Positions 2,254 to 34,533 of a stretch of DNA of 45,159 nucleotides are shown piece after piece. The stretch is from Bacteroidota bacterium. GTDB lineage: Bacteria; Bacteroidota; Bacteroidia; 2-12-FULL-35-15. Every line of letters starts with the position of its first letter. The stretch's first letter is position 1. The notes beneath the pieces were generated by a model, which was not told where the DNA came from, made no database searches, and saw only the letters and a program-made list of their open reading frames with translations. Position numbers and translations under genes: made by a program. The stretch lies in assembly GCA_947466965.1 (NCBI GenBank), contig CANIFU010000018.1:1-45159 (forward strand), read 5' to 3'.

Positions 2254-3567
2254 ATGGCACAAGTAGAGTTGATTATGCCCAAAATGGGTGAAAGTGTTGC
2301 AGAAGCAACGATCATTAAATGGTTAAAAAAAGAAGGTGATAAAATTGCTGCCGATGAAACTGTTCTAGAAATTGCAACTGATAAAGTAGATTCTGAGATT
2401 CCTTCTACCTCAGAAGGAACACTTATAAAACGCTTATTCAACGAAGGTGATGTGGTGCAGGTTGGAAAAGCGATTGCTATTATTTCAACCGATGCGAATA
2501 CTGTTATTGAAACTGTTGTATTAAATGCACCTGTTGTAGAACAAACAAAATCAATTCAACAAGAATTAGCTACTTCAGCAATTAATAATGCTGTTTCTAT
2601 TGAAAAAAATTCTTCATCAGGAAAATTCTTTTCACCACTTGTTCGAAATATCGCAAAACAAGAAGGCATAGCAATGGATGAATTAGACAGCATTTCAGGC
2701 ACCGGCGCAAATGGCAGAGTGACTAAAAATGACATACTTGCATACATTCCAAACAAAGGAAAACAAGCTACAACTGAACAACCTAAAGTTATACAGGAAT
2801 TAGCATTAAACAATGGTACTGCCCAAACACAAACAAAACCTGCTATTTCATTAAACCCAGGCGATGAGATTATTGAAATGGATCGCATGCGTAAACTCAT
2901 TGCTGATCATATGGTGATGAGTAAGCATACTTCTCCACATGTTACTTCTTTTGTAGAAGCGGACGTTACAAACATTGTTAAATGGAGAGATAAAGTAAAA
3001 GGAAACTTTGAAAAACGAGAAGGTGAAAAGCTAACCTTCACTCCTATCTTCATAGAAGCATTGGTTAAAGCAATAAAAGATTTTCCAATGATCAATATCT
3101 CGTTGGATGGAACAAAGATAATCAAAAGAAAAAGTATTAACATCGGTATGGCAGCTGCATTACCGAGTGGCAATTTGATTGTTCCTGTGATAAAAAATGC
3201 AGATACATTAAACTTAGTTGGAATAACAAAACAAGTGAATGATCTAGCGAACCGCGCTCGTGCAGGAAAATTATCTCCAGATGATATCCAGGGAGGAACC
3301 TATACAATCACGAATGTTGGTTCATTCGGGAATGTTATGGGTACACCAATTATTAATCAACCTCAGGTTGCAATTATGGCTGTTGGTGCAATAAAGAAAA
3401 AGCCTGCTGTTATCGAAACACCAGAAGGTGATTTGATTGGCGTTCGACATTTTATGTATTTATCACATTCTTATGATCACAGAGTTGTTGACGGATCTTT
3501 GGGTGGGAAATTTGTAAGAAGAGTTGCTGATTATCTCGAGCAGTGGGATATTGAACGAGAAATATAG
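2254..3567 (+). CDS. 2-oxo acid dehydrogenase complex E2 (dihydrolipoamide acyltransferase)
   Basis: The core subunit of a pyruvate/branched-chain/2-oxoglutarate dehydrogenase-type complex. It transfers an acyl group from lipoate to CoA. Three parts are visible in 437 residues: a lipoyl domain (about 1-80) with the attachment lysine K44 in ATDKVDSE; an E3/E1-binding domain (about 126-165, FFSPLVRNIA to GRVTKNDI); and the catalytic domain (about 205-437) with the DHRVVDG motif (H409, D413). Linkers rich in Q/T/A/P separate them. The single lipoyl domain and the GESVAEATI motif fit the branched-chain or 2-oxoglutarate type rather than a multi-lipoyl pyruvate E2, but the substrate cannot be assigned. 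E1 and E3 genes are not adjacent in the window. It has its own promoter, and the next gene starts 36 bp downstream. Confidence 0.93.
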   Translation: MAQVELIMPKMGESVAEATIIKWLKKEGDKIAADETVLEIATDKVDSEIPSTSEGTLIKRLFNEGDVVQVGKAIAIISTDANTVIETVVLNAPVVEQTKSIQQELATSAINNAVSIEKNSSSGKFFSPLVRNIAKQEGIAMDELDSISGTGANGRVTKNDILAYIPNKGKQATTEQPKVIQELALNNGTAQTQTKPAISLNPGDEIIEMDRMRKLIADHMVMSKHTSPHVTSFVEADVTNIVKWRDKVKGNFEKREGEKLTFTPIFIEALVKAIKDFPMINISLDGTKIIKRKSINIGMAAALPSGNLIVPVIKNADTLNLVGITKQVNDLANRARAGKLSPDDIQGGTYTITNVGSFGNVMGTPIINQPQVAIMAVGAIKKKPAVIETPEGDLIGVRHFMYLSHSYDHRVVDGSLGGKFVRRVADYLEQWDIEREI

Positions 3568-3603: not shown

Positions 3604-5679
3604 ATGAAAAAGTACTCTCTCCACTTATTTTTAATTGTTACAATTTTTTTGTATTCCACCAATGGGTTTTCCTTGGAGCGAAATTCCAATTATAAGAACA
3701 CATACAGATATGCGGAAGAGCTTTTCGTAAACGAAAACTATACAGCGGCATTGCCTTTGTATATCAAGCTCGACTCAATGGATAAAGGAAATCACAATCT
3801 TAATTTCAAGATCGGATTTTGTTATTTAAAAGCAGCAACTTACAAAACAAAAGCTATTCCTTATTTAGAATTCGCAATCAATAACATTGCGAAACGCTAT
3901 GAACAAGGTGCAATAAATGAGCAAGAAGCACCACTTTCTAGCTATTATTATCTCGCAAAAGCATACCATTTCAATTATGAATTTGATAAAGCTATTGTGA
4001 TGTATCAAAAATACCTTAACGAATTGGGGACGGATACAAAATACAAAGAAGAAATTGATGAAATAAATCATGATATTGAAACTTGCAACTTTGGAAAAGA
4101 ACTCATAAAAAACCCAAAAACTATTACGGTTGAAAATCTTGGAGAAGCAGTAAACAGTAAATTCCCGGATTACGCCCCTGTTGTTTCATTGGATGAACAA
4201 ACATTGATTTTTACATCACGTAGAGAAAGCCTAACAAGTCAAAATAAATTACCAAACGGTGAATATTATGAAGATATTTTTGTTTCTACATATGTTGATG
4301 GCAAGTGGTGTAAAGCGAACCCGATAGGACCAAACATTAATTCAGCTGAACATGAAGCTTCAATTAATCTATCAGCAGATGGTTTAAAATTACTAATCTA
4401 TAAAGATGATGGAGGCAATGGTAATTTATACCTGAGTGAATTGAAAGGAACAGAATGGAGCATACCAAAATATGCATCTGCCCCAATTAATTCATCGTCA
4501 TGGGAATCGCATGCTTGCTTAAGCTCCGATAACCGTGTATTGTATTTCACCAGCAACAGACCAGGAGGTTTTGGTGGAAGAGATATTTATAAGTGTTTAA
4601 AATTACCAAATGGAGATTGGGGTCCCGCTCAAAACATAGGAGATGTAATCAATACAAAATATGATGAGGACGGAATCTTTATTCATCCTGATGGCAAACA
4701 AATTTTTTTCTCATCAAAAGGTCATAATTCCATGGGAGGATTTGACATTTTTACCTCAATGATCAATGATGAAAACGGATATTGGTCAAGGCCTGTTAAT
4801 TATGGCTACCCTGTTAATACAACCGATGACGACGTTTTCTTAATCACGTCAGCTGACGGCTCCCGTGCTTTCTTTTCTTCCGATAAAGAAGGTGGATTTG
4901 GAGAGAAAGATATTTATATGATTAAATTTCCGGAATTCGAAACGCGAGACATTACAGTATTATTAGGTAAAATCATCAATAATTCAAACGAAAGCATTGA
5001 AAACAATCAAATATACATTATCGAACAATCAAAAATGGATACCTTAATGGTTTTAAATGCCAACGGTGCTTCCGGAAAATTCGGAACAAATCTTCCTGTA
5101 GGGAAAACATATAGAACAGTATATGTTGTGAATAATGAGGAAATATATTCTGAAATAATAGACGTGCAGAAAGGAAAACATTACCAGGTAATTAAAAGAA
5201 ATGTTCCCTATAAATCGGCGGCCTTGTTAACAGCTATAGATTCTGCGGCTCAAAATAACCTTGCAAATAAAAACGTAATTGATTCTTGCAATCCCCAAAA
5301 ATCAACTTTCCAGTTGTTTTTTAAATACAACAAAAAAGAGCTAGACAATAATATGTTAGCATTTAAATCGTTTATAGATGCACTTGCAAATTGCATCAAA
5401 ACCAATCCTGTATATGAAATTCACATAGAAGCAAGTGCGTCTAAAGTTCCTACAAAAACCTTCAATAGCAACCAAAATTTAGTCAACTTAAGAGCTATGA
5501 ATGCGAAAGAAAAAGTAATGGAAGCGTTGACTAAAAAAGGACTTGCAAAAAATCAGGTACTTTTCAGTGAAACAATAGCATTGGTTCAGGGTCCGGATTA
5601 CCAAAAAGACGCAATTGAAAATAGATCAACCTACGAGCAATATCAATTCATAAAGATAACCGTCTCTCAGAAAAAATAA
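3604..5679 (+). CDS. PorE-like TPR/PD40 envelope protein with divergent OmpA-like C-terminus (paralog 1 of 4)
   Basis: A 691-residue exported protein with a signal peptide at 1-23. TPR-like helices span about 31-150. A PD40/WD40-like beta-propeller covers about 188-440 (repeated DG..IFFSS, GGFG..DIY and F..SNR elements). A weak carboxypeptidase-regulatory-like fold lies at about 449-535 and an OmpA-like region at about 567-689. The last region keeps the beta-alpha layout (FQLFFKYNKKEL...), but the peptidoglycan-binding signature (TDxxG...NxxLSxxRA) is missing; at the equivalent place is SASKVP (611-616) followed by AKEKVMEAL. This domain order is known from PorE of the type IX secretion system. 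It starts 36 bp after the E2 gene and could be read through from it. Role inferred: periplasmic or outer-membrane-associated scaffold. Confidence 0.8.
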   Translation: MKKYSLHLFLIVTIFLYSTNGFSLERNSNYKNTYRYAEELFVNENYTAALPLYIKLDSMDKGNHNLNFKIGFCYLKAATYKTKAIPYLEFAINNIAKRYEQGAINEQEAPLSSYYYLAKAYHFNYEFDKAIVMYQKYLNELGTDTKYKEEIDEINHDIETCNFGKELIKNPKTITVENLGEAVNSKFPDYAPVVSLDEQTLIFTSRRESLTSQNKLPNGEYYEDIFVSTYVDGKWCKANPIGPNINSAEHEASINLSADGLKLLIYKDDGGNGNLYLSELKGTEWSIPKYASAPINSSSWESHACLSSDNRVLYFTSNRPGGFGGRDIYKCLKLPNGDWGPAQNIGDVINTKYDEDGIFIHPDGKQIFFSSKGHNSMGGFDIFTSMINDENGYWSRPVNYGYPVNTTDDDVFLITSADGSRAFFSSDKEGGFGEKDIYMIKFPEFETRDITVLLGKIINNSNESIENNQIYIIEQSKMDTLMVLNANGASGKFGTNLPVGKTYRTVYVVNNEEIYSEIIDVQKGKHYQVIKRNVPYKSAALLTAIDSAAQNNLANKNVIDSCNPQKSTFQLFFKYNKKELDNNMLAFKSFIDALANCIKTNPVYEIHIEASASKVPTKTFNSNQNLVNLRAMNAKEKVMEALTKKGLAKNQVLFSETIALVQGPDYQKDAIENRSTYEQYQFIKITVSQKK

Positions 5680-5700
5680 TTCAACGATTATAGACGTTAG

Positions 5701-5719
5701 AGGAATAAATTTCCTTTTT
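5701..5719 (+). terminator. Weak hairpin/terminator after paralog 1
   Basis: AGGAA (5701-5705) pairs with TTCCT (5711-5715) over a 5-nt loop and runs into Ts up to 5719. The stem is short, so termination may be partial. Confidence 0.35.
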
Positions 5720-5762
5720 AAATGTTTTTTAAAAAAAAATATCAAAAAATCCTTAGAAAGAG

Positions 5763-5770
5763 TATATTTG
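5763..5770 (+). promoter_or_regulatory. -7 promoter box of paralog 2
   Basis: TATATTTG matches the Bacteroidota -7 consensus, 33 nt before the ATG at 5803. No clear -33 element was seen. Confidence 0.5.
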
Positions 5771-5802
5771 CTTTAAAATTTTACATTTTCTAAACACTGA
5801 TT

Positions 5803-8079
5803 ATGAAAAAAATTAATCTTTTTTTACTCCTTTTGTTTCTAACTTCTTTGGGATTTTCTCAAGCAGGAAGAGGCGATTATAAAGCTAATTTCCTTCAAGG
5901 CAATTATTTAATCCTTGAACAAAATTATTCTTTAGCGCTAAAATATTTCAAAGACGCTTATCTGATTGACTCCTCTAACGCGAATATAAATTACAAAATA
6001 GGTATATGTTACTTAGAATCTGAGACAGAAAAAAACAAAGCCTTATCCTTTCTTGAAAAATCAGTACAAAATGTCTCTCACAATTACAATCCAGAGGATC
6101 CCAAGGAGAAAAAAGCTCCTGAATTAGCCTATTATTCTCTTGGTGTTGCCTACCGCCTTGCATACCGTTTCAATGAATCGATTACTTATTTTAACAAATT
6201 TAAAGCTATCATTGGCAACCGCAATCAAAGTCTTACTTCAGATCTGGATAAGCAAGTGGAAACAAATTTTAACGCAATTGAATTTATTAAAGATACAATT
6301 AGTGTAAGTATTAAGAATCTTGGTGATAGTATTAACTCCATCTATCCTGATTATAGTCCTGTCATTTCTGCAGATGAATCCACTTTAATTTTCACCTCAC
6401 GAAGAGCAGGTAGCACAGGGGGAGAAAAAACAGATAACGATCAATTTCTTGAAGACATCTATTTTTGTAACAAAAAAACAGATGGCACATGGTCTTCCGC
6501 AAAATCAATCGGTTCAAGCATAAATACGTTTGGTAGCGAAGCCAATATCAATCTTTCCCCTGATGGTCAGCAATTGTATGTTTACAGAGATGTGAACGGA
6601 GGAGATATTTATTACAGTAATTTAGAAGGCGACACCTGGAGCGGATTATTACCTTTATCTTCAAACATAAATACTCCAGACTGGGAAACACATGCTACAG
6701 TTTCTTTAGATGGAAATACCTTATATTTTGTAAGCAATAGAAAGGAAGGCAGTTATGGTGGTAGAGATATTTGGCGAAGTGTAAAATTACCAAACGGACA
6801 ATGGAGTATGCCCTTGAATGCAGGTCCAGAAATCAATACGAAAGAAGATGAAGAGGCTCCCTTTCTTCATCCCGATGGTGTAACGCTATTTTTTAGCTCA
6901 AAGGGTCACAAAAATATGGGTGGATTTGATATTTTCAAATCTGTAAAAGATAAAAACGGCAATTGGACTACTCCTGAAAACCTAAGATCTCCAATTAACA
7001 CACCCGATGACGATATTTTTTATGTTCAATCTGCTGATGGCAAAAGAGGCTATTTTTCTTCCTTAAGAGACAAAGGATTTGGTGGAAAAGATATTTACAT
7101 GATCAATTTTGATAAAGCAATCGCCGAACCATTAACACTTCTAAAAGGATATATAACTTTTGACGGCACAACAAAAGGGCTTTCAAAAGTTGAAATAGTG
7201 GCTACCGATATGGCAACAGGATTGGTTGTTCAAAACATTAAAACGAATGAACTAACCGGAAAATACCTAATGATCCTTAAACCTGGGATAGAAGGAAAGA
7301 CATATAATATCAGTTATGAATCAGAAGGTTTTCAACCTATTAATGTTACAATTACAATTCCTCCCAACTCCTCTTATCAGGAAATTGAGAAAGAACTTTT
7401 ATTGCATAGCTTAAATTTTGAAAGTAAAACACTTGGAACCATAACCATTTCTGGCACTCTAAAAAATGTTAAGGGGAATTCTATTTCTGGAGCTCAGATT
7501 GTAGTGAAAGACAACATTACCGGCAAACTTATAGAAACCTTTTATACTTCTTCCGATTCTGGCTCCTATTCTTTTATTTTAAATCGAGGACAAAACTATA
7601 ATTTATCATACGAAGCTAAAGGATATCTTTTTCAATCTGAAAATGTAAATATTACCAAACAAACAGATTATTCAGTTTTGAAAAAAAATATTATTCTGGA
7701 AAAAGTTCAGATCGGCTCTAAAATAGTACTCAACAATATTTTCTTTGATTCTAACAAAGCTACTCTTAAGAAAGAATCAAATTTGGAAATTGAAAAGCTA
7801 TTGAATCTAATGAAAGAATATCCCGAATTAACCTTTGAAATAGCCGGTCACACGGATAACAAGGGAAACGATGCGGCAAACTTAAAACTATCGCAAATGC
7901 GTGCTCAGGCAGTGGTAGACGCCTTTGTAAAAAAAGGGATCAGTGAACAGTACCTAATTTCAAAAGGATATGGTGAAACGATGCCAATTGCTGCAAATAC
8001 TATGCCTTCTGGGCAACCTAACAAAAAAGGAATGCAACAAAACAGAAGAGTTGAAATAAAAATAATTGAATCTAAATAA
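5803..8079 (+). CDS. PorE-like protein: TPR, PD40 propeller, two CRD folds, canonical OmpA domain (paralog 2 of 4)
   Basis: A 758-residue exported protein with a signal peptide cleaved near residues 19-22 (LGFSQAG; no lipobox cysteine). TPR helices lie at about 26-160 and the PD40 propeller at about 180-437. Two carboxypeptidase-regulatory-like domains follow (about 447-520 and 546-615), then an OmpA_C domain at about 640-757. The OmpA domain is canonical: FFDSNKATL, then T684-D685 and N693/L696-S697/R700-A701 of the peptidoglycan-binding signature, ending with QNRRVEI. This is exactly the architecture described for PorE, which links the type IX secretion system to peptidoglycan, though PorE of Porphyromonas is a lipoprotein and has one CRD. 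Of the four paralogs, this is the only one expected to bind peptidoglycan. It has its own -7 box. Confidence 0.85.
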   Translation: MKKINLFLLLLFLTSLGFSQAGRGDYKANFLQGNYLILEQNYSLALKYFKDAYLIDSSNANINYKIGICYLESETEKNKALSFLEKSVQNVSHNYNPEDPKEKKAPELAYYSLGVAYRLAYRFNESITYFNKFKAIIGNRNQSLTSDLDKQVETNFNAIEFIKDTISVSIKNLGDSINSIYPDYSPVISADESTLIFTSRRAGSTGGEKTDNDQFLEDIYFCNKKTDGTWSSAKSIGSSINTFGSEANINLSPDGQQLYVYRDVNGGDIYYSNLEGDTWSGLLPLSSNINTPDWETHATVSLDGNTLYFVSNRKEGSYGGRDIWRSVKLPNGQWSMPLNAGPEINTKEDEEAPFLHPDGVTLFFSSKGHKNMGGFDIFKSVKDKNGNWTTPENLRSPINTPDDDIFYVQSADGKRGYFSSLRDKGFGGKDIYMINFDKAIAEPLTLLKGYITFDGTTKGLSKVEIVATDMATGLVVQNIKTNELTGKYLMILKPGIEGKTYNISYESEGFQPINVTITIPPNSSYQEIEKELLLHSLNFESKTLGTITISGTLKNVKGNSISGAQIVVKDNITGKLIETFYTSSDSGSYSFILNRGQNYNLSYEAKGYLFQSENVNITKQTDYSVLKKNIILEKVQIGSKIVLNNIFFDSNKATLKKESNLEIEKLLNLMKEYPELTFEIAGHTDNKGNDAANLKLSQMRAQAVVDAFVKKGISEQYLISKGYGETMPIAANTMPSGQPNKKGMQQNRRVEIKIIESK

Positions 8080-8225
8080 CTGATTTTAAAATAATTAAAC
8101 AGCCTATTTATTTCTTGCTACTTAATGTATTACATAAAATATTTAAATGTTTTTGATTAAATTAATAAATAATTGTGCTTATCTTACTAGCTTAGCGTAA
8201 TATTTATTTTTAATCACCTGGCTCT

Positions 8226-10652
8226 ATGCAAAAAATATTAATCTTATTCTTTTCAATTTTCGTCTTCAATTTTTCTTTAAAAGCCCAAGGCAAATCTGAC
8301 TACCGTCAGAAATTCACCGAAGGTAATTTTCTAATATTGGAAGGTAATTTCCCCTTAGCGTTAAAGAATTTCAAGGAGGCATTCGAAATTGATTCTACCA
8401 ATGCAAATATAAATTTCAAAATGGGCTTGTGCTATTTAAATTCTGAAACAGAAAGAAACAAAGCAATAATATACTTAGAACGTGCCATTAAGAAAACGTC
8501 AAAAAAATACAAAGATCTTGATCCATCAGAAAAATCCGCTCCTGTAAATGCATATTTTTACTACGGACAAGCCCTTCACTTCTCATATAAATTTGATGAT
8601 GCAATTGCGAATTATGAAAAATTCAAATCTTATTTAAAAGAAAAAAATCGATTGCTCATTAAAGATGTCGATCGCCAGATTGAAATCAGTAACAATGCTA
8701 AAACACTTGTAAATGCACCAATGAATATTATATTAAAAAACCTTGGTGATAGTATTAATTCTTCAGCTCCTGAATATAGTGCGGTTTTATCTGCTGATGA
8801 GAAAACAATCATTTTTACTACAAGAAGAGCTTCGGGCACAGGGCTTGATAAAACAGATGAAGGCCAGTTTTATGAAGATATTTATATCGCATATAAAAAA
8901 ACAGATAGTACTTGGACAAGTCCAGTTTCTATTAGTGCGAATATCAATTCAACAACTCACGAAGCGAGTGTTGGACTAACAGCTGATGCTCAAACTCTGT
9001 TAATATACAAAGACGTAAATGGAGGAGACATTTATTTCAGTACCCTTGAAGGGAATAACTGGACTTACCCACAGGCGATGGCCTCCGACATCAATAGTCC
9101 TAAATGGGAAACCAGTGCCTGTTTAAGTCCGGATGGAAATACCCTATATTTTGTGAGTAACAGGGATGGCGGACTTGGTGGACGGGATATTTGGAAATGT
9201 TTAAAATTGCCCAATGGGAAATGGAGTTTAGCAATGAATTTAGGCGCTCCAATAAATACAATTTATGATGAAGAATCTCCATTTATACACCCAAGCGGTA
9301 ATGTTTTATTCTTTAGTTCAAAAGGGCACCAGACAATTGGAGGATTCGACATTTTCTTTTCTTCTAAAAACCAAGAAACAAATACTTGGGAAGAACCTTT
9401 TAATATTGGTTACCCAATAAATACAACTGATGACGAAGTGTTTTATGTGACATCGCCGGATGGAAAAAGAGGGTATTACTCTTCCTCATACAGACCAGAA
9501 GGTTATGGAGAAAAGGACATATATATGGTATCTTTGCCTGAGCGACAAGAAGTGCCTCTTGTTTTGATCAAAGGATTTATTGTCCCTACACAAGGCCAGC
9601 AATTACCTCCATTTTTGGAAATTCTTGTAACTAATAATGAAACAGGAATTGTTTCTGGGGTTTACAAACCGATGGTAAAAGATGGCAGTTTCACAATTAT
9701 TATTCCTCCAGGAAGTAATTATACACTTTCTTATTCCAATGATGGGCAAGAATTTTTCTCTGAAGTGATCGATGTACCAATGAGTTCTGCTTATCAGGAA
9801 ATCAACAAAGAAGTGCTCTTAAATCGTGTAAATTGGGGAGTAGAAATAAAAGATACAATCGCAAAAACAAACACAGATGTAGCTTTCATTTCCTTAGATG
9901 GAAAAATTGTGGATGAAAATAATTCACCATACACAAATTTAAAAGTGAACCTAATTAATTCAAAAGGTGAAATAATAAAATCAACTACTTCAGATGAATT
10001 GGGTTGGTTTATCTTCTCCGATCTTCCTAATAACGAAGAATACATGGTTGGTCTGGACGAAAATGATACTCGTATTATTGGAAAAAAATCACACGCTGAA
10101 TTCAAAGACGCTAACGGTAAATTACTAAAATCAAAAATTATCGAAGGAAAATACATACTGTCAAATTCCAAAACTTCTATAAGGTTCAAAACAAATCCTA
10201 AAAACATACCTGTTGTTACTACCAAATATGATAATACGATTTCGAATAAAGTACCTCACGAACAACTTGCCAGTGTTAATAATTTAAATTTCGAAATGTA
10301 TTTCAAATATAATGTAACCGAGATTGACATAAATGATGTTCAGTTTAAACAATATATAGATAATTTATCGGCTTTAGTTGCAAAGAACGGAAGCTTAAAC
10401 ATCAAATTAATTTCTAGTGCATCAAAAGTACCTTCAAGAGCCTATAAATCGAACAAAGAGCTTTCTATAGCTCGATCTGAAAAAGCAAAAGAACAAATTC
10501 TGAATGCATTGAAAGAAAAAGGAGTTGATGCCTCGAACGTTATTTTTGTAAAAACAAAATCATATGTATCCGGACCTACTTACAATTTTGATTATTTAAT
10601 TAATAAGGCACAATACGAAGCATATCAATTCATTAAAATAGCTGGGTACTAA
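8226..10652 (+). CDS. PorE-like TPR/PD40 protein with divergent OmpA-like C-terminus (paralog 3 of 4)
   Basis: 808 residues, the longest of the four. Signal peptide 1-20 (ending LKAQ), TPR about 25-160, PD40 propeller about 183-437, CRD-like folds at about 445-530 and 553-615, an insert of roughly 60 residues, then an OmpA-like region at about 687-808. The first 440 residues track paralog 2 closely (NANINFKMGLCYLNSETE; SPDGNTLYFVSNR), whereas the C-terminus tracks paralog 1: SASKVP (731-736), an AKEQILNAL helix, and a tail GPxYxxDxLxNxxxYExYQFIKI shared with it. The peptidoglycan-binding Asp and Arg signature is absent. It looks like a domain shuffle between neighbouring paralogs. A strong terminator follows. 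Confidence 0.8.
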   Translation: MQKILILFFSIFVFNFSLKAQGKSDYRQKFTEGNFLILEGNFPLALKNFKEAFEIDSTNANINFKMGLCYLNSETERNKAIIYLERAIKKTSKKYKDLDPSEKSAPVNAYFYYGQALHFSYKFDDAIANYEKFKSYLKEKNRLLIKDVDRQIEISNNAKTLVNAPMNIILKNLGDSINSSAPEYSAVLSADEKTIIFTTRRASGTGLDKTDEGQFYEDIYIAYKKTDSTWTSPVSISANINSTTHEASVGLTADAQTLLIYKDVNGGDIYFSTLEGNNWTYPQAMASDINSPKWETSACLSPDGNTLYFVSNRDGGLGGRDIWKCLKLPNGKWSLAMNLGAPINTIYDEESPFIHPSGNVLFFSSKGHQTIGGFDIFFSSKNQETNTWEEPFNIGYPINTTDDEVFYVTSPDGKRGYYSSSYRPEGYGEKDIYMVSLPERQEVPLVLIKGFIVPTQGQQLPPFLEILVTNNETGIVSGVYKPMVKDGSFTIIIPPGSNYTLSYSNDGQEFFSEVIDVPMSSAYQEINKEVLLNRVNWGVEIKDTIAKTNTDVAFISLDGKIVDENNSPYTNLKVNLINSKGEIIKSTTSDELGWFIFSDLPNNEEYMVGLDENDTRIIGKKSHAEFKDANGKLLKSKIIEGKYILSNSKTSIRFKTNPKNIPVVTTKYDNTISNKVPHEQLASVNNLNFEMYFKYNVTEIDINDVQFKQYIDNLSALVAKNGSLNIKLISSASKVPSRAYKSNKELSIARSEKAKEQILNALKEKGVDASNVIFVKTKSYVSGPTYNFDYLINKAQYEAYQFIKIAGY

Positions 10653-10680
10653 TAAAAATATTTATAATCTCAATTAATTA

Positions 10681-10714
10681 AAAAAACCTCCAAAACTAAT
10701 TTGGAGGTTTTTTT
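10681..10714 (+). terminator. Intrinsic terminator after paralog 3
   Basis: AACCTCCAAA (10685-10694) pairs with TTTGGAGGTT (10700-10709) over a 5-nt loop, extended by A/T flanks and followed by a T run to 10714. Confidence 0.85.
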
Positions 10715-10733
10715 GATAAATTAAGGACATTTC

Positions 10734-10764
10734 TTTCATAAAAAAAACTTTTTTTGTACTTTAG
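10734..10764 (+). promoter_or_regulatory. Probable promoter of paralog 4
   Basis: TTTC at 10734-10737, a 19-nt spacer, then TACTTTAG at 10757-10764, one base off the TAnnTTTG consensus. It predicts transcription starting at about 10769-10773, which makes a TTG start codon at 10773 unlikely and favours GTG at 10806. Confidence 0.45.
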
Positions 10765-10805
10765 TACCATACTTGTTTAAAAAAAGCCAAATAAAGAGAT
10801 ATACG

Positions 10806-12380
10806 GTGAATAAAATTTCTACCATTTTTTTTAAAAGAATACTGTTTTTTGCGATTGCTTTTTTATTAACCAACGGAATAAAAGCGCAGCCTAAAACCTC
10901 AAAGATAATTGACCCAGCTGATGCGAAAGAACATTTTTCTCATAACAATTTCTTATTTGCAATACCCTCTTATAAACAACTTCTAAAACAAGAACCCAGC
11001 AACAGCGATTACAATTACAAACTGGGTATCTGTTACCTCTACACTAATATTAATAAAACACTTGCCATTCCTCACCTAGAAATTGCCAGCAAAGCAACAA
11101 AGCCCGAAAAACAAGTACTTTATCATTTGGGGTTGGCGTATCAATATGCTAGCCGCTTTGATGATGCTATTAAAACATTGAACAAATACAAAGCAACTTT
11201 AGTGGGAATAGAATTAGAGCAAATTGAGCATCAAATTGAAACGTGTGAAAATGCTAAAGAATACGTAAAACACCCTGTAAATGTTACTTTTCAGAATCTT
11301 GGAAAAGAAATCAATTCAGAATTTCCAGACTATTATCCTTTTGTTTCTGCAAACGAAACCTTTATCGTTTTTACTTCCAGAAGGAAAGATAATATTGGAG
11401 GACAAGTGGAAGTTGATGGTTACTTCTCATCCGATATATACATGTCTAATCCATTGAATGACGTATGGACTAAACCTAAAAACATGGGTGGAACAGTAAA
11501 TACCCGCTATGATGAACAAGCCGTTGGATTAACACCAGACGGACAAACCATGCTAATGTATATTGACCACATCGATAGTTTGGGAAATATCTATTCTTCC
11601 ATAAATAAAGCAGGAACCTTTCAAAAAATGAGGAAACTAAATAACAATGTGAATTCCGATTTTGAAACAGCCGGATCAATAACTCCGGATGGAAATATCA
11701 TTTTTTTTGCTTCCAAACGGGATGGTGGCTTTGGTGAAACCGATTTATATATGGCCCGTAAATTACCAAACGGACTATGGGCGAAAGCTCAAAATTTAGG
11801 TTCTACTTTGAATACCAAATACAAAGAAGATTTTCCACAAATTGCCCCGAATGGAAAAACACTTTATTTTTCTTCACAAGGACATGCCGGAATGGGCGAC
11901 TTCGACCTTTTTCAATCTACCTGGAATGAGGAAGAAAATTCGTGGACAAGCCCTAAAAACTTAGGATATCCAATCAATTCAGTTGGCGATGATCGTTGTA
12001 TTTCTTTTACAGAAAATAATAGAGTGGCATATATTTCAGCATCCAGAGATGGTGGATTCGGAGATCTGGATTTATACCGATTAAAATTTGAAGATTCCGA
12101 TGACCGAATGACTGTCTTACAAGCTTATATAACAACTTCCGACAGTTCAAAAAATGTAACTTCAATTGTAACCGTTAGAGATCTAAAAAATAAAAATGCG
12201 CAAGAATTAAACTATAGTCCGAATTCAAAATCAGGTAAATTTATTATGGCATTAACTCCAAGTAAATATGAAATAACAATTGAAGCAGATGGCTATAAAA
12301 AATTAACGGATGTCTTCTTTATTTTTGATATTGGTAACGGACAAAATGAAAGTAAAAAGTTATTTACACTTCAGAAATAA
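10806..12380 (+). CDS. PorE-like TPR/PD40 protein lacking an OmpA domain (paralog 4 of 4)
   Basis: From GTG at 10806 the protein has 524 residues. An in-frame TTG at 10773 would add 11 residues but coincides with the predicted transcript start, and a purine-rich AAAGAG lies 8 nt before the GTG. A signal peptide ends in GIKAQ. Counted from the longer 535-residue reading, TPR-like helices span about 50-150, the PD40 propeller about 188-437 (TPDGNIIFFASKRDGGFGETDLY and similar), and one carboxypeptidase-regulatory-like fold about 445-520. The protein stops there with no OmpA-like domain. The stop is followed at once by another gene and I see no frameshifted remainder, so the short form looks genuine. 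It is the most divergent member and has its own terminator-separated promoter. Confidence 0.78.
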   Translation: MNKISTIFFKRILFFAIAFLLTNGIKAQPKTSKIIDPADAKEHFSHNNFLFAIPSYKQLLKQEPSNSDYNYKLGICYLYTNINKTLAIPHLEIASKATKPEKQVLYHLGLAYQYASRFDDAIKTLNKYKATLVGIELEQIEHQIETCENAKEYVKHPVNVTFQNLGKEINSEFPDYYPFVSANETFIVFTSRRKDNIGGQVEVDGYFSSDIYMSNPLNDVWTKPKNMGGTVNTRYDEQAVGLTPDGQTMLMYIDHIDSLGNIYSSINKAGTFQKMRKLNNNVNSDFETAGSITPDGNIIFFASKRDGGFGETDLYMARKLPNGLWAKAQNLGSTLNTKYKEDFPQIAPNGKTLYFSSQGHAGMGDFDLFQSTWNEEENSWTSPKNLGYPINSVGDDRCISFTENNRVAYISASRDGGFGDLDLYRLKFEDSDDRMTVLQAYITTSDSSKNVTSIVTVRDLKNKNAQELNYSPNSKSGKFIMALTPSKYEITIEADGYKKLTDVFFIFDIGNGQNESKKLFTLQK

Positions 12381-12416: not shown

Positions 12417-13229
12417 ATGATACAACCTAATTTAATTCGTCCAATTGCATTTTTCGATTTGGAAACAACCGGTGTGAATGTCGCTTCCGACAGAATTGTT
12501 GAACTTTGTATTTTAAAGATTTCTCCTGATGGAACAAAAGAAATTAAAACAAAACGCATTAATCCAACAATTCCAATCCCTCTGGTTGCCTCTGAAATCC
12601 ATAAAATATACGACAAAGATATAGAGAATGAACCCACCTTTAAAAGCTATGCAAAAAGTCTCGCTGAATTCCTGAAAGATTGTGATTTAGCGGGTTACAA
12701 TTCTAACAAATTTGATATTCCAATTTTAGTAGAAGAATTTTTACGTGCCGAAATTGAATTCGATATAAAAGGAAGACACTTTGTTGATGTTCAAAACATT
12801 TTCCATCAGATGGAACAAAGAACTTTAAAAGCAGCGTATAAATTTTATTGTGGTAAAGAAATTATAAATGCACACAGTGCTCAGGCAGATATTGAAGCAA
12901 CTTATGAAGTATTTTTAGCCCAACTTCAAAAATATGACGGAGTTGAATTTGAAGATAAAAAAGGCAATAAGTCTTCGCCTGTAATAAACGATATTAAAGC
13001 GCTTCACGAATTCACAAACATCAATAAAAATGCGGATCTTGCAGGAAGGATCATTTTTAATGAAAAAGGGATTGAAGTTTTTAATTTCGGAAAACACACA
13101 GGAAAAGCGGTAGAACAAGTATTACGTGATGAGCCTTCTTATTATTCATGGATGCTGAATGGAGATTTTCCTTTGTATACTAAAAAAATACTTACTGAAA
13201 TAAAATTACGTATGACTTTCAACAAATAA
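12417..13229 (+). CDS. DnaQ-like 3'-5' exonuclease with C-terminal DUF3820-like module
   Basis: A 270-residue DEDDh nuclease. Exo I is FFDLETTG (D14, E16), Exo II is the AGYNSNKFDIPIL segment, and Exo III is HSAQADIEAT, providing the catalytic His and Asp. The fold matches the epsilon proofreading subunit of DNA polymerase III, but in Bacteroidota such stand-alone proteins may act in repair or RNA processing. The C-terminal 50 residues (FNFGKHTGKAVE...YYSWMLNGDFP) form a separate small module often fused to these nucleases and resembling DUF3820. It starts 36 bp after paralog 4 and is followed on the same strand by the FAH gene. Confidence 0.88.
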   Translation: MIQPNLIRPIAFFDLETTGVNVASDRIVELCILKISPDGTKEIKTKRINPTIPIPLVASEIHKIYDKDIENEPTFKSYAKSLAEFLKDCDLAGYNSNKFDIPILVEEFLRAEIEFDIKGRHFVDVQNIFHQMEQRTLKAAYKFYCGKEIINAHSAQADIEATYEVFLAQLQKYDGVEFEDKKGNKSSPVINDIKALHEFTNINKNADLAGRIIFNEKGIEVFNFGKHTGKAVEQVLRDEPSYYSWMLNGDFPLYTKKILTEIKLRMTFNK

Positions 13230-13329: not shown

Positions 13330-13941
13330 ATGAAAATAATTTGCATTGGACGTAATTATCTTGAACACGCGAAAGAAATGCATTCACCTGTTCCTGCTGA
13401 GCCAATTTTTTTTTTAAAACCGGATACCGCAATCATCAAAGACAATCAACCTTTTTATTATCCTGATTTTTCAAAAGAAATTCATCATGAAGTAGAATTA
13501 GTAATTAAGATAAATAAAACAGGGAAAAATATTGATACCCAATTTGCTCATAAATATTACGATGAAATAGGTATTGGCATTGATTTTACTGCGCGCGACA
13601 TACAAGCAAAGTGTAAGGAAAAAGGACTACCATGGGAAAAAGCCAAAGCATTTGATGGCTCTGCTCCAATCGGAAAATTTATTGACAAGAAAAAATTTGC
13701 AGATCAAAATAATATTAACTTTCAATTAAGCATTAATGGAAAATCTGTACAGAAAGGGAATACCAAAGATCTGCTATTTAATTTCGATACATTAATTGCT
13801 TACATTTCAAAGTTTTTTACTTTAAAAACTGGCGACCTGATTTATACTGGTACACCTGAAGGAGTTGGTCCGGTTGCTATTGGCGACAAACTCCAAGCAT
13901 CGATTGAAAATGAAATATTATTATCTTTTGAAATAAAATAA
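13330..13941 (+). CDS. Fumarylacetoacetate hydrolase family protein
   Basis: A 203-residue single-domain member of the FAH superfamily, the size of YcgM/FAHD1-type acylpyruvases. Visible signature elements: CIGRNYLEHAKE at the N-terminus, KPDTAI, the metal-binding HHEVELVI segment with its paired glutamates, GIDFTARDIQ with the third acidic ligand, and YTGTPEGVGP near the end. It is expected to hydrolyse a C-C bond in an acylpyruvate or to decarboxylate oxaloacetate; the substrate is unknown. It lies 100 bp after the exonuclease gene and 14 bp before the DUF4197 gene, with which it is probably cotranscribed. Confidence 0.9.
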   Translation: MKIICIGRNYLEHAKEMHSPVPAEPIFFLKPDTAIIKDNQPFYYPDFSKEIHHEVELVIKINKTGKNIDTQFAHKYYDEIGIGIDFTARDIQAKCKEKGLPWEKAKAFDGSAPIGKFIDKKKFADQNNINFQLSINGKSVQKGNTKDLLFNFDTLIAYISKFFTLKTGDLIYTGTPEGVGPVAIGDKLQASIENEILLSFEIK

Positions 13942-17880: not shown

Positions 17881-18471
17881 TTATTGTAGAATCTTTTTAA
17901 TTGTATTCACTATAATTTTGAGATCAGTTAAAATTCCTTGCTCAGCAATATATTTCAGATTGAGTTTTAACTTTGAGGGCATTATTACATTGATGTAGAC
18001 TTCTTCCGGGTTTTCAGCATTTCCTAACAATTCATTTTCATTACTGTATTCAATACTCGCATAATCTGTAATACCTGGCTTAACGGATAATACCTGCATT
18101 TGTTCCGGGGTGTACATGTCAACATATCTTCTCACTTCAGGACGCGGACCTACCAAACTCATTTTACCCAAAAGTACATTTATCAATTGTGGTAACTCAT
18201 CAATTTTATATTTTCTCAATGTATACCCAATTTTTGTAATTCGGTTATCTTTTTTTCCTACAGTAAGCAAGCTGACCTTATCAGCATTGGCTCTCATTGA
18301 ACGAAACTTTAATAATTTAAAATCTACTCCGCCTTTCCCTACTCTGTTTTGTTTATAAAAAATACCACCTTTCGAATCGATGAAAATAAAGAGAGCGATC
18401 AGAAGAAAGGGAAGCAAAAGAAGGATTAATCCTATTAATGAAAAAAATATATCGAAGATTCGTTTAAGCAT
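17881..18471 (-). CDS. Monotopic phosphoglycosyl transferase (WcfS/PglC-like), initiating sugar transferase
   Basis: A 196-residue small PGT that moves a sugar-1-phosphate from a UDP-sugar to undecaprenyl phosphate, the first step of surface polysaccharide synthesis. It has the re-entrant hydrophobic helix (about 7-30), FYKQNRVGKGG, KLLKFRSMRANAD (about 53-64), the catalytic Asp-Glu pair D91-E92 in KIDELPQL, and SLVGPRPEV. It lacks the four extra membrane helices of WbaP-type enzymes. Its ATG directly abuts the stop codon of the upstream aminotransferase gene (TAAATG), implying translational coupling. The pairing resembles WcfR-WcfS of Bacteroides capsule loci. It is the last gene of the operon. 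Confidence 0.9.
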   Translation of the reverse strand: MLKRIFDIFFSLIGLILLLLPFLLIALFIFIDSKGGIFYKQNRVGKGGVDFKLLKFRSMRANADKVSLLTVGKKDNRITKIGYTLRKYKIDELPQLINVLLGKMSLVGPRPEVRRYVDMYTPEQMQVLSVKPGITDYASIEYSNENELLGNAENPEEVYINVIMPSKLKLNLKYIAEQGILTDLKIIVNTIKKILQ

Positions 18472-19686
18472 TTATTTATTTACAATAACTTTATTTACAG
18501 AATCAATTACCGAATCAACAACTCGCTTAACTAGATCATCATTCAAGTCAACATAAACAGGTAATGAAATCTCTCTTGAATAATTATCAAATGTTACCGG
18601 ATATTTTTTTATATCGTATCCGAGATTTTTATAAAAGCTCATCATAGGAACAGGAATAAAATGCACATTAACTGCAACGTCGTGGTCAAATATTTCTTTG
18701 ATGATCGCATCTCGTTGAGCTTCAGTAATACCTTTAATGCGAAGGGCATATAAATGATAACAGGAATTTTTATTTTCAGAGACATACTCAGGCAGTTGTG
18801 CCCATTCGTATTTTGAAAAAGCATTGTCATATTGTTGAAAGATATGCGCACGTTTTTTTGTTGTAATACTGTCGTAACGATCTAATTCAACCAAACCGAT
18901 TGCCGCCATAATATCGGTCATATTACATTTGTAACCCGCCTCAACGATATCATATCGCCAGTTACCTTTTTGAGTTTTTGCTAGCGCATCCTTATCCTGA
19001 CCATGAAGTGTTTTAATACACAAAGACTTATAAACCGCTTCATTATCAAATGGTGCTGGAAGATTTAATGCAACAGCTCCGCCTTCAGCAGTGGTTAAAT
19101 TTTTGACAGCATGAAAAGAAAATACAGAAATATCGGTTAAAGAACCAGCTTTTTTTCCTTTGTATGTTGCACCGAATGAGTGAGCAGAATCGGAAAGTAC
19201 TAAAACACGACCGAGCAATTTTTGCTCTTCCGATTGAGGCACAAAGGCCGCTTTGTGTTTTACAACAAGAGAATTAATCTCATCATAATCACAGGCATAA
19301 CCTCCAAAATCAACAGGCATTATTACTTTTGTATTTGAAGTGATTGCTTTTTCAATATTAGCGATTGAAATATTAAAATCAGTAGCATCTACATCTACAA
19401 AAACAGGTGTTGCACCACAATGCATCACAACATTGGCAGTTGCCGAATAGGTATAAGCCGGAAGAATAACTTCATCCCCCACTTTCACTCCGAACCAACG
19501 AAGAATAATCTCTAAACCAGCAGTAGCACTGTTTAAACACAAGGTGTTTTTATTTCCGCAATAATTTGTAATTTCTTTTTCAAAGAGTTTTGTTTTAGGA
19601 CCGGTTGTAATCCAGCCTGATTTTAAAACATTAGTTACTTCATCAATTATTTTTTGATCAATATGTGGTGGCGAAAAATGAATCAT
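18472..19686 (-). CDS. DegT/DnrJ/EryC1/StrS sugar aminotransferase (WcfR/PglE-like)
   Basis: A 404-residue PLP enzyme predicted to aminate a UDP-4-keto-6-deoxy sugar. Visible: GWITTGP near residue 24, LPAYTYSATANVVMHCGATPVFVDVD (about 75-100), the PLP-binding SDSAHSFGA, and the Schiff-base lysine K195 in FHAVKNLTTAEGG. It is slightly longer than typical PglE because of an insert rich in polar residues at about 148-160. Its stop codon touches the start of the phosphoglycosyl transferase gene, so the nucleotide-activated amino sugar it makes is the likely substrate of that transferase. The required 4,6-dehydratase is not in the window. Confidence 0.88.
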   Translation of the reverse strand: MIHFSPPHIDQKIIDEVTNVLKSGWITTGPKTKLFEKEITNYCGNKNTLCLNSATAGLEIILRWFGVKVGDEVILPAYTYSATANVVMHCGATPVFVDVDATDFNISIANIEKAITSNTKVIMPVDFGGYACDYDEINSLVVKHKAAFVPQSEEQKLLGRVLVLSDSAHSFGATYKGKKAGSLTDISVFSFHAVKNLTTAEGGAVALNLPAPFDNEAVYKSLCIKTLHGQDKDALAKTQKGNWRYDIVEAGYKCNMTDIMAAIGLVELDRYDSITTKKRAHIFQQYDNAFSKYEWAQLPEYVSENKNSCYHLYALRIKGITEAQRDAIIKEIFDHDVAVNVHFIPVPMMSFYKNLGYDIKKYPVTFDNYSREISLPVYVDLNDDLVKRVVDSVIDSVNKVIVNK

Positions 19687-19699
19687 TTTATCAGCGATA

Positions 19700-21016
19700 T
19701 TAATTAATAGTTAATTCTTGGGTGCTTATATTCTTTGATTTTTTTTCAAATGAAAAACTTAATAAAACATAAATAAATACAAAATAAATAACACCAGCTT
19801 GTACTTCTAGCATCGACTCAACTAAAAAGTTAAGTGCCGCTATTAATACGAACATTTTGAATAAAAGTTGTTGGCGCTTATAATAAAAATAAAAGGGTGC
19901 TGCTAAAATAAATACAAGAATTGCAAAACCAAAAATACCTAGAGGAATAAACGTATTAAAATATTGATTATGAGAATTTAAGTTTGTTTTATATTCGGAA
20001 ACCATGCCTTTTTCTATATATTTTTCAAGCATTACATCTTTAGCATCACCAGTACCAACTCCAAAAATAAAGTTAGATTTAACAATATCTACTGCAGCTT
20101 TCCAAACTAAAACCCTGCTCCCCGATCCATCTGTATCAGCAACATCTTTGGTTGAATCTGATAAAATGCCTTGATTTTTTATAGCTCCAGTTATAACAGC
20201 TATTTTAGGTATTCGAGTTATTGAAACTGGTGTTATTTTAATATTTAAAATATAAAACATACTTCCTAGAAATACAGAAATTAGTATCAACAGCATGTAT
20301 TTTTTTTGCTTGAATAAGTTAGTAAATAAATAACATGATATTACAGATAAACTTATCCAACCAGCTTTAGAGCTTAACATCAGAACAAATAGAACTAATA
20401 ATATAATAGCTGTGCACCATTTCCAATTTAATTGCAACTTATTAGTACTTACAAAATAAAATAAAATAGCCAAAGCAAAAACACTATACATAGCACTATA
20501 ACTAGGATGTAAAAAAATAGATAAATTAGTGTAATAAAAACAACCTATACCTAAATTAGTTTCTAAACCATTAATAATAATATACTCGGGTTTAACATAA
20601 CGATATAAAGCAACTAAAAAACATATTGTTGCATAAAACAAACAACCAAATACAAAAAACTTAAAATATTTATCTATAAAATCTTTACAAGATTGGCTAT
20701 AAGTAGACAATACAAAAGGGAAAACAATAAATGATAATTTAGTTTCAAGTTCTTCCCTACCAAACTTTAAATTAGTTGAATAGCACATTCCAATTAAATA
20801 GATAGCGTAAAACAAAACTAGTAATATTAAACCAGGATTATTAATATTCGCTTTAAAGCCAACAATTATTTGCTTGGGAGCTAAGAGCCAATTAAATACA
20901 ATTAACAAGATAATAGGCGATAAAATTAAAGGAAAAATAGGTATAAAAAAAGCCAATGCACACATCAAAAATATATGGATGGGTGTATTTAAACGAATTA
21001 TATTAATTTCTAACAT
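19700..21016 (-). CDS. O-antigen ligase/polymerase family membrane protein (WaaL/Wzy-type)
   Basis: 438 residues with about ten to twelve hydrophobic segments. The large periplasmic loop before the last helices carries GVGTGDAKD and SHNQYFNTFIPLGIFGF, the His-containing pattern characteristic of O-antigen ligases and related polymerases. It may ligate finished polysaccharide to lipid A-core (or to another acceptor) or polymerise repeat units; sequence alone cannot separate these. The first is easier to reconcile with the ABC exporter of the same operon. The gene is very AT-rich. It lies 13 bp downstream of nothing unusual: the acyltransferase ends 1 bp before its start, so the two are tightly coupled. 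Confidence 0.85.
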   Translation of the reverse strand: MLEINIIRLNTPIHIFLMCALAFFIPIFPLILSPIILLIVFNWLLAPKQIIVGFKANINNPGLILLVLFYAIYLIGMCYSTNLKFGREELETKLSFIVFPFVLSTYSQSCKDFIDKYFKFFVFGCLFYATICFLVALYRYVKPEYIIINGLETNLGIGCFYYTNLSIFLHPSYSAMYSVFALAILFYFVSTNKLQLNWKWCTAIILLVLFVLMLSSKAGWISLSVISCYLFTNLFKQKKYMLLILISVFLGSMFYILNIKITPVSITRIPKIAVITGAIKNQGILSDSTKDVADTDGSGSRVLVWKAAVDIVKSNFIFGVGTGDAKDVMLEKYIEKGMVSEYKTNLNSHNQYFNTFIPLGIFGFAILVFILAAPFYFYYKRQQLLFKMFVLIAALNFLVESMLEVQAGVIYFVFIYVLLSFSFEKKSKNISTQELTIN

Positions 21017-21017
21017 A

Positions 21018-21644
21018 TTATTTAACCGAATAATTAGATGAAACTAATGTTTGATCATAATAATTATCAAAATTAATTCCATCCAAAAATAATTTCTTAT
21101 CAATCTTTCTTGTATCTCCGACCACCTTTGCTGGATTACCAACAATTACAGAATAATCAGGAAAACTACCTTTAACAATACTACCAGCACCTACAATGGA
21201 AGCTTTTCCTATTGAAGTGCCGCATAATAAAACTGCAGAAGTACCAATTAAAGAATATTCACCTATAAATACAGGTTTTATAATATATCCAGGACGAACT
21301 TTTGCAGGGATTTCAATAAACTTTTCGCCATTTAAACGAATTGCATTTTCACTACTGTGAGTATAAATACAAGCATGCGAAGCTAATTGTACACCTTTCT
21401 CAATTTTAATGCCTCCAATCCCATCTAAGATACAATAATGACCTACCCACACATTATTTTGAATATCAATATTAATTTTATTAACGAATTTAACAGTTGA
21501 ACTTATACGCGTTTTATTATAGAATTTTTTATCAATCTTATTAAAAAAACCATATACCATAAATGGTTTTTTTAAAAATGAAATTAAATTTAAAAATAAG
21601 GAAATAAAAAAACCGACTGGAGATAAATATATACGTCTAAACAT
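21018..21644 (-). CDS. Hexapeptide-repeat acyltransferase (left-handed beta helix)
   Basis: 208 residues. After an N-terminal hydrophobic/basic segment (about 1-35), residues 50-195 show repeated [LIV]-G-x4 hexapeptides (NNVWVGHYCILDGIGG, GEYSLIGTSAVLLCGTSIG, KASIVGAGSIVKG) and the common ending VIVGNPAKVVGDTRKI. This is the fold of sugar O- or N-acetyltransferases. The HACIYTHSS stretch likely contains the catalytic histidine. It probably decorates the polysaccharide with acetyl groups at the cytoplasmic side of the membrane. It sits between a GT4 and the ligase/polymerase gene with gaps of a few bases. Confidence 0.87.
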   Translation of the reverse strand: MFRRIYLSPVGFFISLFLNLISFLKKPFMVYGFFNKIDKKFYNKTRISSTVKFVNKINIDIQNNVWVGHYCILDGIGGIKIEKGVQLASHACIYTHSSENAIRLNGEKFIEIPAKVRPGYIIKPVFIGEYSLIGTSAVLLCGTSIGKASIVGAGSIVKGSFPDYSVIVGNPAKVVGDTRKIDKKLFLDGINFDNYYDQTLVSSNYSVK

Positions 21645-21650
21645 TTTTTG

Positions 21651-22814
21651 TTATTTTTTTTTACAAATATAATTATAATAAAGTTCAGCATTTTTAGGAG
21701 TGAAATTTAAAGAGGCTTTTCGAGAATTTTCTTTTAAAATATTTAAAAGATTTTTATCATCATAAAGACCTAAAATATATTCTGAAATACCCTTTTTATC
21801 TCCTTTTTCAAAAACCGAACCACATTTAAACTTATCAACCATTAACTGAAATTCGGAATTTTTTGATGCCAATGCCAATAAAACAGATCCTGCAGCTAAA
21901 ACCGAATATGTTTTACTTGGTAATGATGCATATTCCATACCTTCACCTAAAGCAATAACACCTATATCGCCTGTTGTAATTGAAAAAGGGAATGTTTCTT
22001 TTTCTTGAAAATCTAATAATATAACATTAGATAATTTTTTATCAGTAATTATTTTTTGTATTTGATTTTTTTTTGCTCCTTCGCCAATTAAAACAAAGTT
22101 TATATCTTGTTTATCAATCAGTAATTCGGCTGCTGAAAGTAAAGATTCGAAATCGTGTGTATCACCAAAATTACCCGAATATAAAACGGTAAATTTATCT
22201 ACTTGATTGTATTTTTTTGCAAACCAATTTTCGTTCTTAGGTTTTGGAATAATAAAATTTGTATCCACCCAATTATTAATTACAGTAGGTTTAATTTTAT
22301 TGTCGTAGTATTTTTCTAATGCTTTAGCCATAAAATGCCCTAGCGTTATAACGGAATCAGCTTTATTTAAAAGTCGCGTATTTAGCTTAGCCCAAGTCCT
22401 GTATGTTATATCCGATTGCTTAAATATTTTCATACTTAATAACGCATCCGGATAAATATCCCACATTATGAGATGATATTTTTGTTTAAATAAACGTTTA
22501 AAAAAAAGCCCTAAAAAGGTGATGAATGGAGGTGTTGAAATAATTACTAATTCATACTTTTTGCTTTTAAATAATAGCCTAAAAAAAACTTGAATTGTAA
22601 ACCATAGCCAAGTAAAAATACGTTTCGTTGATTTCTCCTTATTGTATTTACAAAAATAAACAACTTCAATTGTAGGATTTAATGTTGTTTGCGTATTACT
22701 TATTTCGCCTGCATATAAAATTACCGACTCGCCATTTTCGGCAAATTGGTTAAGTATATCCACCATTAATTGGCGAGTAACCTGACAAATAAATATGTAT
22801 TTTTTTTTATTCAC
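21651..22814 (-). CDS. Glycosyltransferase family 4 (WbuB-like)
   Basis: A 387-residue GT-B enzyme. The N-terminal half contains a membrane-associated basic helix region (FRLLFKSKKYELVIISTPPFITFLG) and IMWDIYPDALL, typical of WbuB-type amino-sugar transferases. The C-terminal half starts with FTVLYSGNFGDTHDFESLL and has the E-x7-E-like donor site replaced by ALGEGMEYASLPSKTYSVLAAG, again as in that subgroup. It transfers a sugar to the growing lipid-linked chain, probably retaining. Acceptor and donor are unknown. Coding density is high: gaps of 6 bp downstream and 11 bp upstream. Confidence 0.87.
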   Translation of the reverse strand: MNKKKYIFICQVTRQLMVDILNQFAENGESVILYAGEISNTQTTLNPTIEVVYFCKYNKEKSTKRIFTWLWFTIQVFFRLLFKSKKYELVIISTPPFITFLGLFFKRLFKQKYHLIMWDIYPDALLSMKIFKQSDITYRTWAKLNTRLLNKADSVITLGHFMAKALEKYYDNKIKPTVINNWVDTNFIIPKPKNENWFAKKYNQVDKFTVLYSGNFGDTHDFESLLSAAELLIDKQDINFVLIGEGAKKNQIQKIITDKKLSNVILLDFQEKETFPFSITTGDIGVIALGEGMEYASLPSKTYSVLAAGSVLLALASKNSEFQLMVDKFKCGSVFEKGDKKGISEYILGLYDDKNLLNILKENSRKASLNFTPKNAELYYNYICKKK

Positions 22815-22825
22815 TAATTAAATTT

Positions 22826-23839
22826 TTATTTAAACAAAATCGCTTTAATTAATCGGCCATATACTTTTAAAACGTCAAAAGCTTTTGGTCTGTACTTATC
22901 ACTTTTATTTGGATTAGCCGAATAAACGCCAAACATATTAATGGTACGATAAATTCCTAAAAACCAAAATATAGATCTAATAATCAATGCCAAAGAAAGT
23001 AGCGATTTTAATTGGAATGATTTAAATTTAGATTCATGTTTTTTAAAAACATACACCAAATTTTTATGATACTGCTCAAACGAAGCAATAATATTTTTTT
23101 GTGATGAACTACCACCTAAATGTATAATTTCAACTTCGGGCAAATAAAAGGTTTTCATTTTAGCAGCTCTAAATTTATAACCTAACTCACAATCTTCATG
23201 ATAAAAAAATATGTTTTCATCAAGGTTACCAATTGTATTCAGCGATTCTTTTCGGATTAACAAACAAGCTAATGTTAAATAATCAACTACACGTTTTTCA
23301 TCAATGCTATTAAGCATAAAGGCAGGTTTATTATTGCCTGTAAAAAATGAAGTAAAAAGTTTACTGTTTTTTAATTTTACAATATAAAAAGATAAACCTG
23401 TAAGATTAAAAAATGTTTTTAAAGGATTCGGGAAATCAAACCAAGAGCGTTGAATCGTTTTATCAAAATTTAAAAGCTTTGGTCCCACTGCTGTAACATC
23501 AATATGAGAATTTAAAAATTCAATTAAATTATTTAATGTATTTTCTAAAACAATGGTGTCGCTATTTAGCAACAAAACCATTTCGCCTTTTGCTTTTTGT
23601 ATTCCTAAATTATTTGCTTTTGAGAAACCCAAATTCTCTTTATTGTCAATAACAATTGTATTTGTAAATTTTTTTTTTATCATTTCCACACTTCCATCGT
23701 TCGAAAAATTATCAACAACAATAATTTCATACAAACAGCTAGAATTGGTTGAATAAATTGAATTTAAACACTGTTCGATTAAATCCTTTGTGTTATAATT
23801 TATTATAATTATAGAAAGTTGGGGCTTTACTACATCCAT
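22826..23839 (-). CDS. Glycosyltransferase family 2 (WbbL-like)
   Basis: 337 residues, GT-A fold. N-terminus LSIIIINYNTKDLIEQCLNSI, nucleotide-binding VVDNFSNDGSVEM, NLGFSKANNLGIQKAKGE, and the DxD-like LNSDT at about residues 92-96. The acceptor-side motif is FFYHEDCELGYKFRAAKMK, with ED as the likely base region. The GFSKANN and HEDCELGYR-type motifs are those of rhamnosyltransferase-like enzymes, but the sugar cannot be assigned. It starts 4 bp downstream of the next GT2 gene. Confidence 0.88.
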   Translation of the reverse strand: MDVVKPQLSIIIINYNTKDLIEQCLNSIYSTNSSCLYEIIVVDNFSNDGSVEMIKKKFTNTIVIDNKENLGFSKANNLGIQKAKGEMVLLLNSDTIVLENTLNNLIEFLNSHIDVTAVGPKLLNFDKTIQRSWFDFPNPLKTFFNLTGLSFYIVKLKNSKLFTSFFTGNNKPAFMLNSIDEKRVVDYLTLACLLIRKESLNTIGNLDENIFFYHEDCELGYKFRAAKMKTFYLPEVEIIHLGGSSSQKNIIASFEQYHKNLVYVFKKHESKFKSFQLKSLLSLALIIRSIFWFLGIYRTINMFGVYSANPNKSDKYRPKAFDVLKVYGRLIKAILFK

Positions 23840-23843
23840 TTAT

Positions 23844-24731: not shown

Positions 24732-24797
24732 TTTTATATTTCTACAAAATAATAATCAAAAATATTATAAAAATAAATTTAAAAAATGCTTTATGGT

Positions 24798-25817: not shown

Positions 25818-25926
25818 GTTATTTTTAATTGATGTTGTTTAGATAATAATTGATTAACTAAAATTTGTTAATTTATAATAATAAAAAAATATTTCTTCCA
25901 TAAACAATGTTGAGGAATTATGTCAG

Positions 25927-26919: not shown

Positions 26920-26921
26920 TC

Positions 26922-28639: not shown

Positions 28640-28640
28640 T

Positions 28641-29873: not shown

Positions 29874-29878
29874 TCTAC

Positions 29879-34530: not shown

Positions 34531-34533
34531 TAT

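Follow-up and report, generated by a model that had tools for sequence, protein, structure and literature searches.

Four paralogous genes between an E2 gene and a dnaQ gene

The subject of this analysis is a run of four consecutive genes near the beginning of a 45,159-nucleotide stretch of DNA from a Bacteroidota bacterium (contig CANIFU010000018.1 of assembly GCA_947466965.1; the whole stretch is referred to below as the window). The four open reading frames lie head to tail on the forward strand at positions 3604-12380, and we have termed them A (3604-5679, 691 residues), B (5803-8079, 758 residues), C (8226-10652, 808 residues) and D (10773-12380, 535 residues, with a TTG start). A dihydrolipoyl acyltransferase (E2) gene recognized by NCBIfam E2 models (2254-3567) ends 36 bp before A, and 36 bp behind D begins the gene for a DnaQ-type exonuclease (12417-13229; Pfam RNase_T and ExoX-like_C), followed by that for a FAH-family hydrolase (13330-13941; Pfam FAA_hydrolase), all three being encoded on the same strand as the array.

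Pairwise BLASTP alignments of A-D span 450-550 residues at 33-49% identity, with E values from 1e-88 to 1e-179. They are true paralogues, as had been proposed in a first-pass annotation of this DNA, which described four consecutive paralogues with a common N-terminal architecture and different C-termini. The annotation had also credited all four proteins with a signal peptide, TPR helices, a PD40 propeller and a CRD-like fold, and this part of the description is carried unevenly: Pfam places PD40 (PF07676) far over its gathering score in A, B, C and D, TPRs are weak in A and clear in the other three, and the CRD-like domain rises over the gathering score in B (where there are two such regions) and in C, its presence in A and D being suggested by alignment only. 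The signal peptides of all four were recognized by visual inspection of the N-termini and not with a dedicated predictor.

The C-termini are what sets the paralogues apart, and the earlier count of one canonical OmpA domain, two altered ones and one protein without was borne out. B ends in a canonical OmpA domain (7708-8076) that scores 68.6 bits with PF00691, the tail of C reaches 15.1 bits (E 0.03) and thus stays under the gathering score of 27.2 bits, and the same Pfam search did not detect PF00691 in A or D. D stops after its CRD-like region. A and C share a C-terminal domain type of their own, with 42% identity over 117 residues by BLASTP; it lies at 5281-5676 in A, where alignment and a genome search located it and where it bears the motif SASKVP, and at 10254-10649 in C. 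To judge from this likeness, the altered tails are one shared and conserved domain type, not two random decays.

A divergent OmpA-like tail with a changed pocket

Across 43 aligned sequences of the divergent domain, the residues Ser57, Val59, Pro60, Asn67 and Arg74 are invariant, and a profile alignment to Pal sets the Ser against the HAD-motif Asp and keeps the Asn and Arg in register. In PorE, a component of the type IX secretion system (T9SS), the residues Asp576, Asn584 and Arg591 contact diaminopimelate (DAP) (PMC7192894). An alignment to the PorE C-domain (PDB 6top) with a residue check shows that B keeps all three of these peptidoglycan contacts as D685, N693 and R700; in A and C the Asp position is occupied by Ser, and D has no such domain. 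Over the loci described below, 37 of the 41 canonical tails have Asp-Asn-Arg, and 85 of the 86 divergent tails, which come from several orders, have Ser-Asn-Arg together with the Val-Pro (VP) motif. The fixed loss of the Asp in domains that are otherwise well conserved argues for selection and against decay.

An AlphaFold2 model of the C tail was obtained at a predicted local distance difference test (pLDDT) score of 94. Its top Foldseek match is the PorE C-domain 6top itself (E 5.9e-7), and VIA-align gave a Z of 9.2 to 6top and of about 9-10.5 to the domains of OmpA, Pal and type VI secretion system (T6SS) anchors. On the strength of the model and these matches, the divergent tail is predicted to have an OmpA-like fold, even though it scores under the PF00691 gathering score.

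Relation to PorE, CHU_0125 and the T9SS

The first-pass annotation had called the four proteins PorE-like. As far as architecture goes this stands, in that the order of TPR, propeller, CRD-like and OmpA-like domains seen in PorE (PG1058) of Porphyromonas gingivalis is complete in B, ends in the divergent tail in A and C, and is tail-less in D. Membership in the PorE family does not follow. The NCBIfam PorE model NF052230 gives A 178, B 278, C 182 and D 174 bits against a curated cut-off of 600, and whereas PorE is an outer-membrane lipoprotein (PMC7192894), a pattern check (not a dedicated predictor) found no lipobox in A-D or in 161 proteins of the array family. The array also differs from PorE in comprising four genes, in having no PorP neighbour, in the Asp to Ser change of A and C, and in the missing tail of D.

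The best PorE match of this genome lies elsewhere, on contig C34 (11484-13478), and scores 528 bits, itself under the cut-off. In a tree of the N-terminal core, a 99/90 branch parts the array from this candidate, from CHU_0125 members and from PorP-linked PorE-like genes of the same genome. The PorP-linked genes in this careful tree are those of contigs C21, C34 and C55; the gene on C17 was left out for its long branch, and it grouped with the PorE, CHU_0125 and PorP-linked set only in a quick tree in which long branches met. Because no PorE over the cut-off was found among 198 sampled genomes of the phylum, a P. gingivalis-type PorE is absent from the tree, and the genome's best PorE match and the CHU_0125 members served as reference. 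By these sequence measures, A-D are PorE-like in architecture and not PorE by membership.

Multiple PorE homologues in one genome have already been published, Tannerella forsythia having 14 of them and Flavobacterium johnsoniae more than twenty (PMC7192894), so that the annotation's assumption of a single PorE per genome was only partly right; the genome studied here has about 16 PorE-like proteins. It also possesses the T9SS core, with SprA, and has 16 PorP-like genes and 28 type B C-terminal domains (CTDs) over cut-off. One could therefore suppose that A-D are T9SS components proper, in which a duplicated and sub-functionalized PorE anchors the PorK/N ring or the gliding track to the wall, a view to which the PorE architecture lends itself and which is in keeping with the presence of SprA in 39 of 41 relatives and in 20 of 21 array-bearing genomes. 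We consider this unlikely. Since SprA is present in nearly every relative, finding it together with the array counts for little, and most SprA-bearing genomes are without the divergent tail. The low PorE scores, the lack of a lipobox, the separate branch and the better PorE candidate elsewhere in the genome all point away from it, and in the window locus the array has no PorP-like gene and no type B CTD gene as a neighbour. Four other loci of the genome (on C17, C21, C34 and C55), away from the array, do have the order type B CTD, PorP-like and PorE-like, which is known as an operon order in F. johnsoniae (e.g. Fjoh_3950; PMC12618676, PMC9143113). The PorE-like proteins of those F. johnsoniae operons equal the array proteins in architecture, and F. 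johnsoniae PorE homologues are likewise reported as non-lipoproteins (PMC7192894), but the array locus lacks their PorP and type B genes and falls on a different branch from the PorP-linked genes of C21, C34 and C55.

A-D might instead be general outer-membrane integrity tethers of the Pal or CHU_0125 kind, unrelated to the T9SS, which simply fasten the outer membrane to the wall and whose tails vary to suit different states of the wall. CHU_0125 (NF053607), an outer-membrane integrity protein of Cytophaga hutchinsonii, has the TPR-PD40-OmpA architecture in common with the array; its model is matched by A-D about as well as that of PorE (195-273 bits), and its mutants are reported to be vesicle-shedding and envelope-sensitive (PMC5891637). 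On the other hand, A-D fall under the CHU_0125 cut-off of 620 bits, lie outside the CHU_0125 clade, and carry no lipid anchor in any member, and we regard this explanation too as improbable.

An old array with conserved positions and neighbours

The synteny survey, a check which the first-pass annotation had suggested, covered 76 loci, namely the window and 75 loci fetched by orthologues of C; they were chosen by similarity to C and are not a random sample. In 50 of the 76, from several families, the array is immediately preceded by a homologue of the E2 acyltransferase gene, and 34 of these 50 loci hold two or more array genes, the array size in the loci seen ranging from one to six genes with fragments included. 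Within the arrays the order A-(E)-B-C-D persists, the tail types mostly keep their position, and the tail-less D type comes last in 22 of the 34 multi-gene arrays. Downstream, dnaQ and the FAH-family gene recur in many loci, and the synteny of E2, array and DnaQ/FAH also extends to other families of the class. Between near relatives, D orthologues are 85-87% identical in their core. In this genome A-D represent an old orthologous tandem array of predicted periplasmic scaffolds, situated between an E2 gene and a dnaQ-FAH pair, that belongs to lesser-known Bacteroidota.

The composition of the array is not uniform. In some lineages (the Vicingaceae and other metagenome-assembled genomes of the Flavobacteriales) the tail order is divergent, divergent, none, and four loci have arrays with divergent tails only, in which the canonical OmpA tail is absent. 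A canonical OmpA member is therefore not obligatory. The annotation's suggestion that only one of the proteins grips peptidoglycan fits the residues of the window, where B alone has Asp-Asn-Arg, and does not carry over to the arrays of these other lineages.

Two further observations concern relatives of the array genes. A second D-type protein is encoded in the genome (contig C24, 5347-7035) and joins the D orthogroup at 100/100. At several loci a lone gene that encodes about 880 residues and has the divergent tail adjoins RF3 and not E2; the RF3 gene of the window (43412-45001) is far from the array.

That A, C and D are decaying redundant tandem duplicates in the course of losing their OmpA domain is the least likely explanation by far, for although copy number varies by lineage from one to six and a few loci bear fragments of array genes, the Ser-Asn-Arg and VP residues are fixed across several orders, D is conserved in both core and last position, and the modelled tail folds confidently.

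To the extent of the literature subset that we searched, which included tandem TPR/WD40-like/OmpA-like proteins, no description of the array was found. What is new here is that proteins of PorE architecture occur in an array that is anchored at E2, is conserved by position and includes a distinct class of OmpA-like tail.

A proposed role in tethering the outer membrane

The reading that we favour, albeit with some reserve, is that the array forms an accessory tether between wall and outer membrane, related to the PorE of the T9SS yet distinct from it, in which the tails of B, of A and C, and of D differ by role. A-D would be exported by way of a signal peptidase I type signal, without lipid anchoring. 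The TPR, propeller and CRD-like part that all four have would probably bind one and the same partner in the envelope, for which an outer-membrane barrel or a fellow array protein is the likeliest candidate. B would hold peptidoglycan through its canonical Asp-Asn-Arg pocket, A and C, with the pocket Asp replaced by an invariant Ser, would probably have a different ligand or an altered binding of peptidoglycan, and D may serve as a scaffold without an anchor. Any link to the T9SS or to gliding is conjectural. More speculative still, and in our view somewhat doubtful, is the proposal that the tail of A and C constitutes a new OmpA-like domain class, with a Ser-Asn-Arg pocket and a VP insertion, whose ligand differs from meso-DAP peptidoglycan and could be, for instance, a protein tail or a modified stem peptide, and that lesser-studied Bacteroidota have in the array a multi-part scaffold dedicated to the envelope and separate from the PorE modules of the T9SS.

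Several results weigh against parts of this tether reading. In many lineages only one gene, with the divergent tail, is linked to E2, and the formation of heteromers can therefore be no general requirement; the annotation's idea of a set of scaffolds is supported as likely. Among 198 genomes sampled evenly from the phylum the divergent tail occurs in 2 and SprA in 154, and the tail is therefore lineage-restricted and no general part of the T9SS. The AlphaFold model of full-length C is poor (pLDDT 64), and it served for the order of secondary structure elements only. Finally, the region that separates C from D contains a strong stem-loop followed by a T-run (10687-10714, forward strand; -25.4 kcal/mol over the 120-nt gap), which was seen by intergenic folding and was missed by a simple terminator scan. 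Given this terminator-like hairpin, D may be a transcription unit apart from A-C, and co-transcription of A-D is therefore not required.

Other features of the window

A match to the Bacteroidota-type promoter consensus (TTG-N19-TAnnTTTG) lies upstream of the E2 gene at 2180-2209 on the forward strand, identified by the consensus alone; the window contains 8 such matches where 2.0 are expected. Matches to sigma-70 promoters in the window are no more frequent than in shuffled sequence (61 versus 61.7). At the contig edge a small membrane protein (249-749) comes near an XrtX-associated model (72.4 bits against a cut-off of 75), which hints at an exosortase system. Beyond the array, a surface-glycan cluster on the reverse strand (17881-31971) encodes glycosyltransferases, a Wzy_C ligase/polymerase, an ABC-2 exporter, DegT aminotransferases and a sugar transferase, and is followed by a protein with an M23 peptidase domain (34513-36267), a possible wall hydrolase that received no NCBIfam name at E 1e-30, and by biotin genes on the reverse strand (37785-41959; bioA, bioD-like, bioF-like and bioB).

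Significance

PorE-like proteins have multiplied in many Bacteroidota, which raises the question of why a cell should need a dozen or more of them. An array whose tails are conserved by position, one looking as if it holds the wall, two with a changed pocket and one with none, offers a natural comparison of the roles of tail and scaffold. The change from Asp to Ser in the pocket, moreover, provides a concrete and inexpensive binding test in a domain family that is otherwise defined by the binding of DAP.

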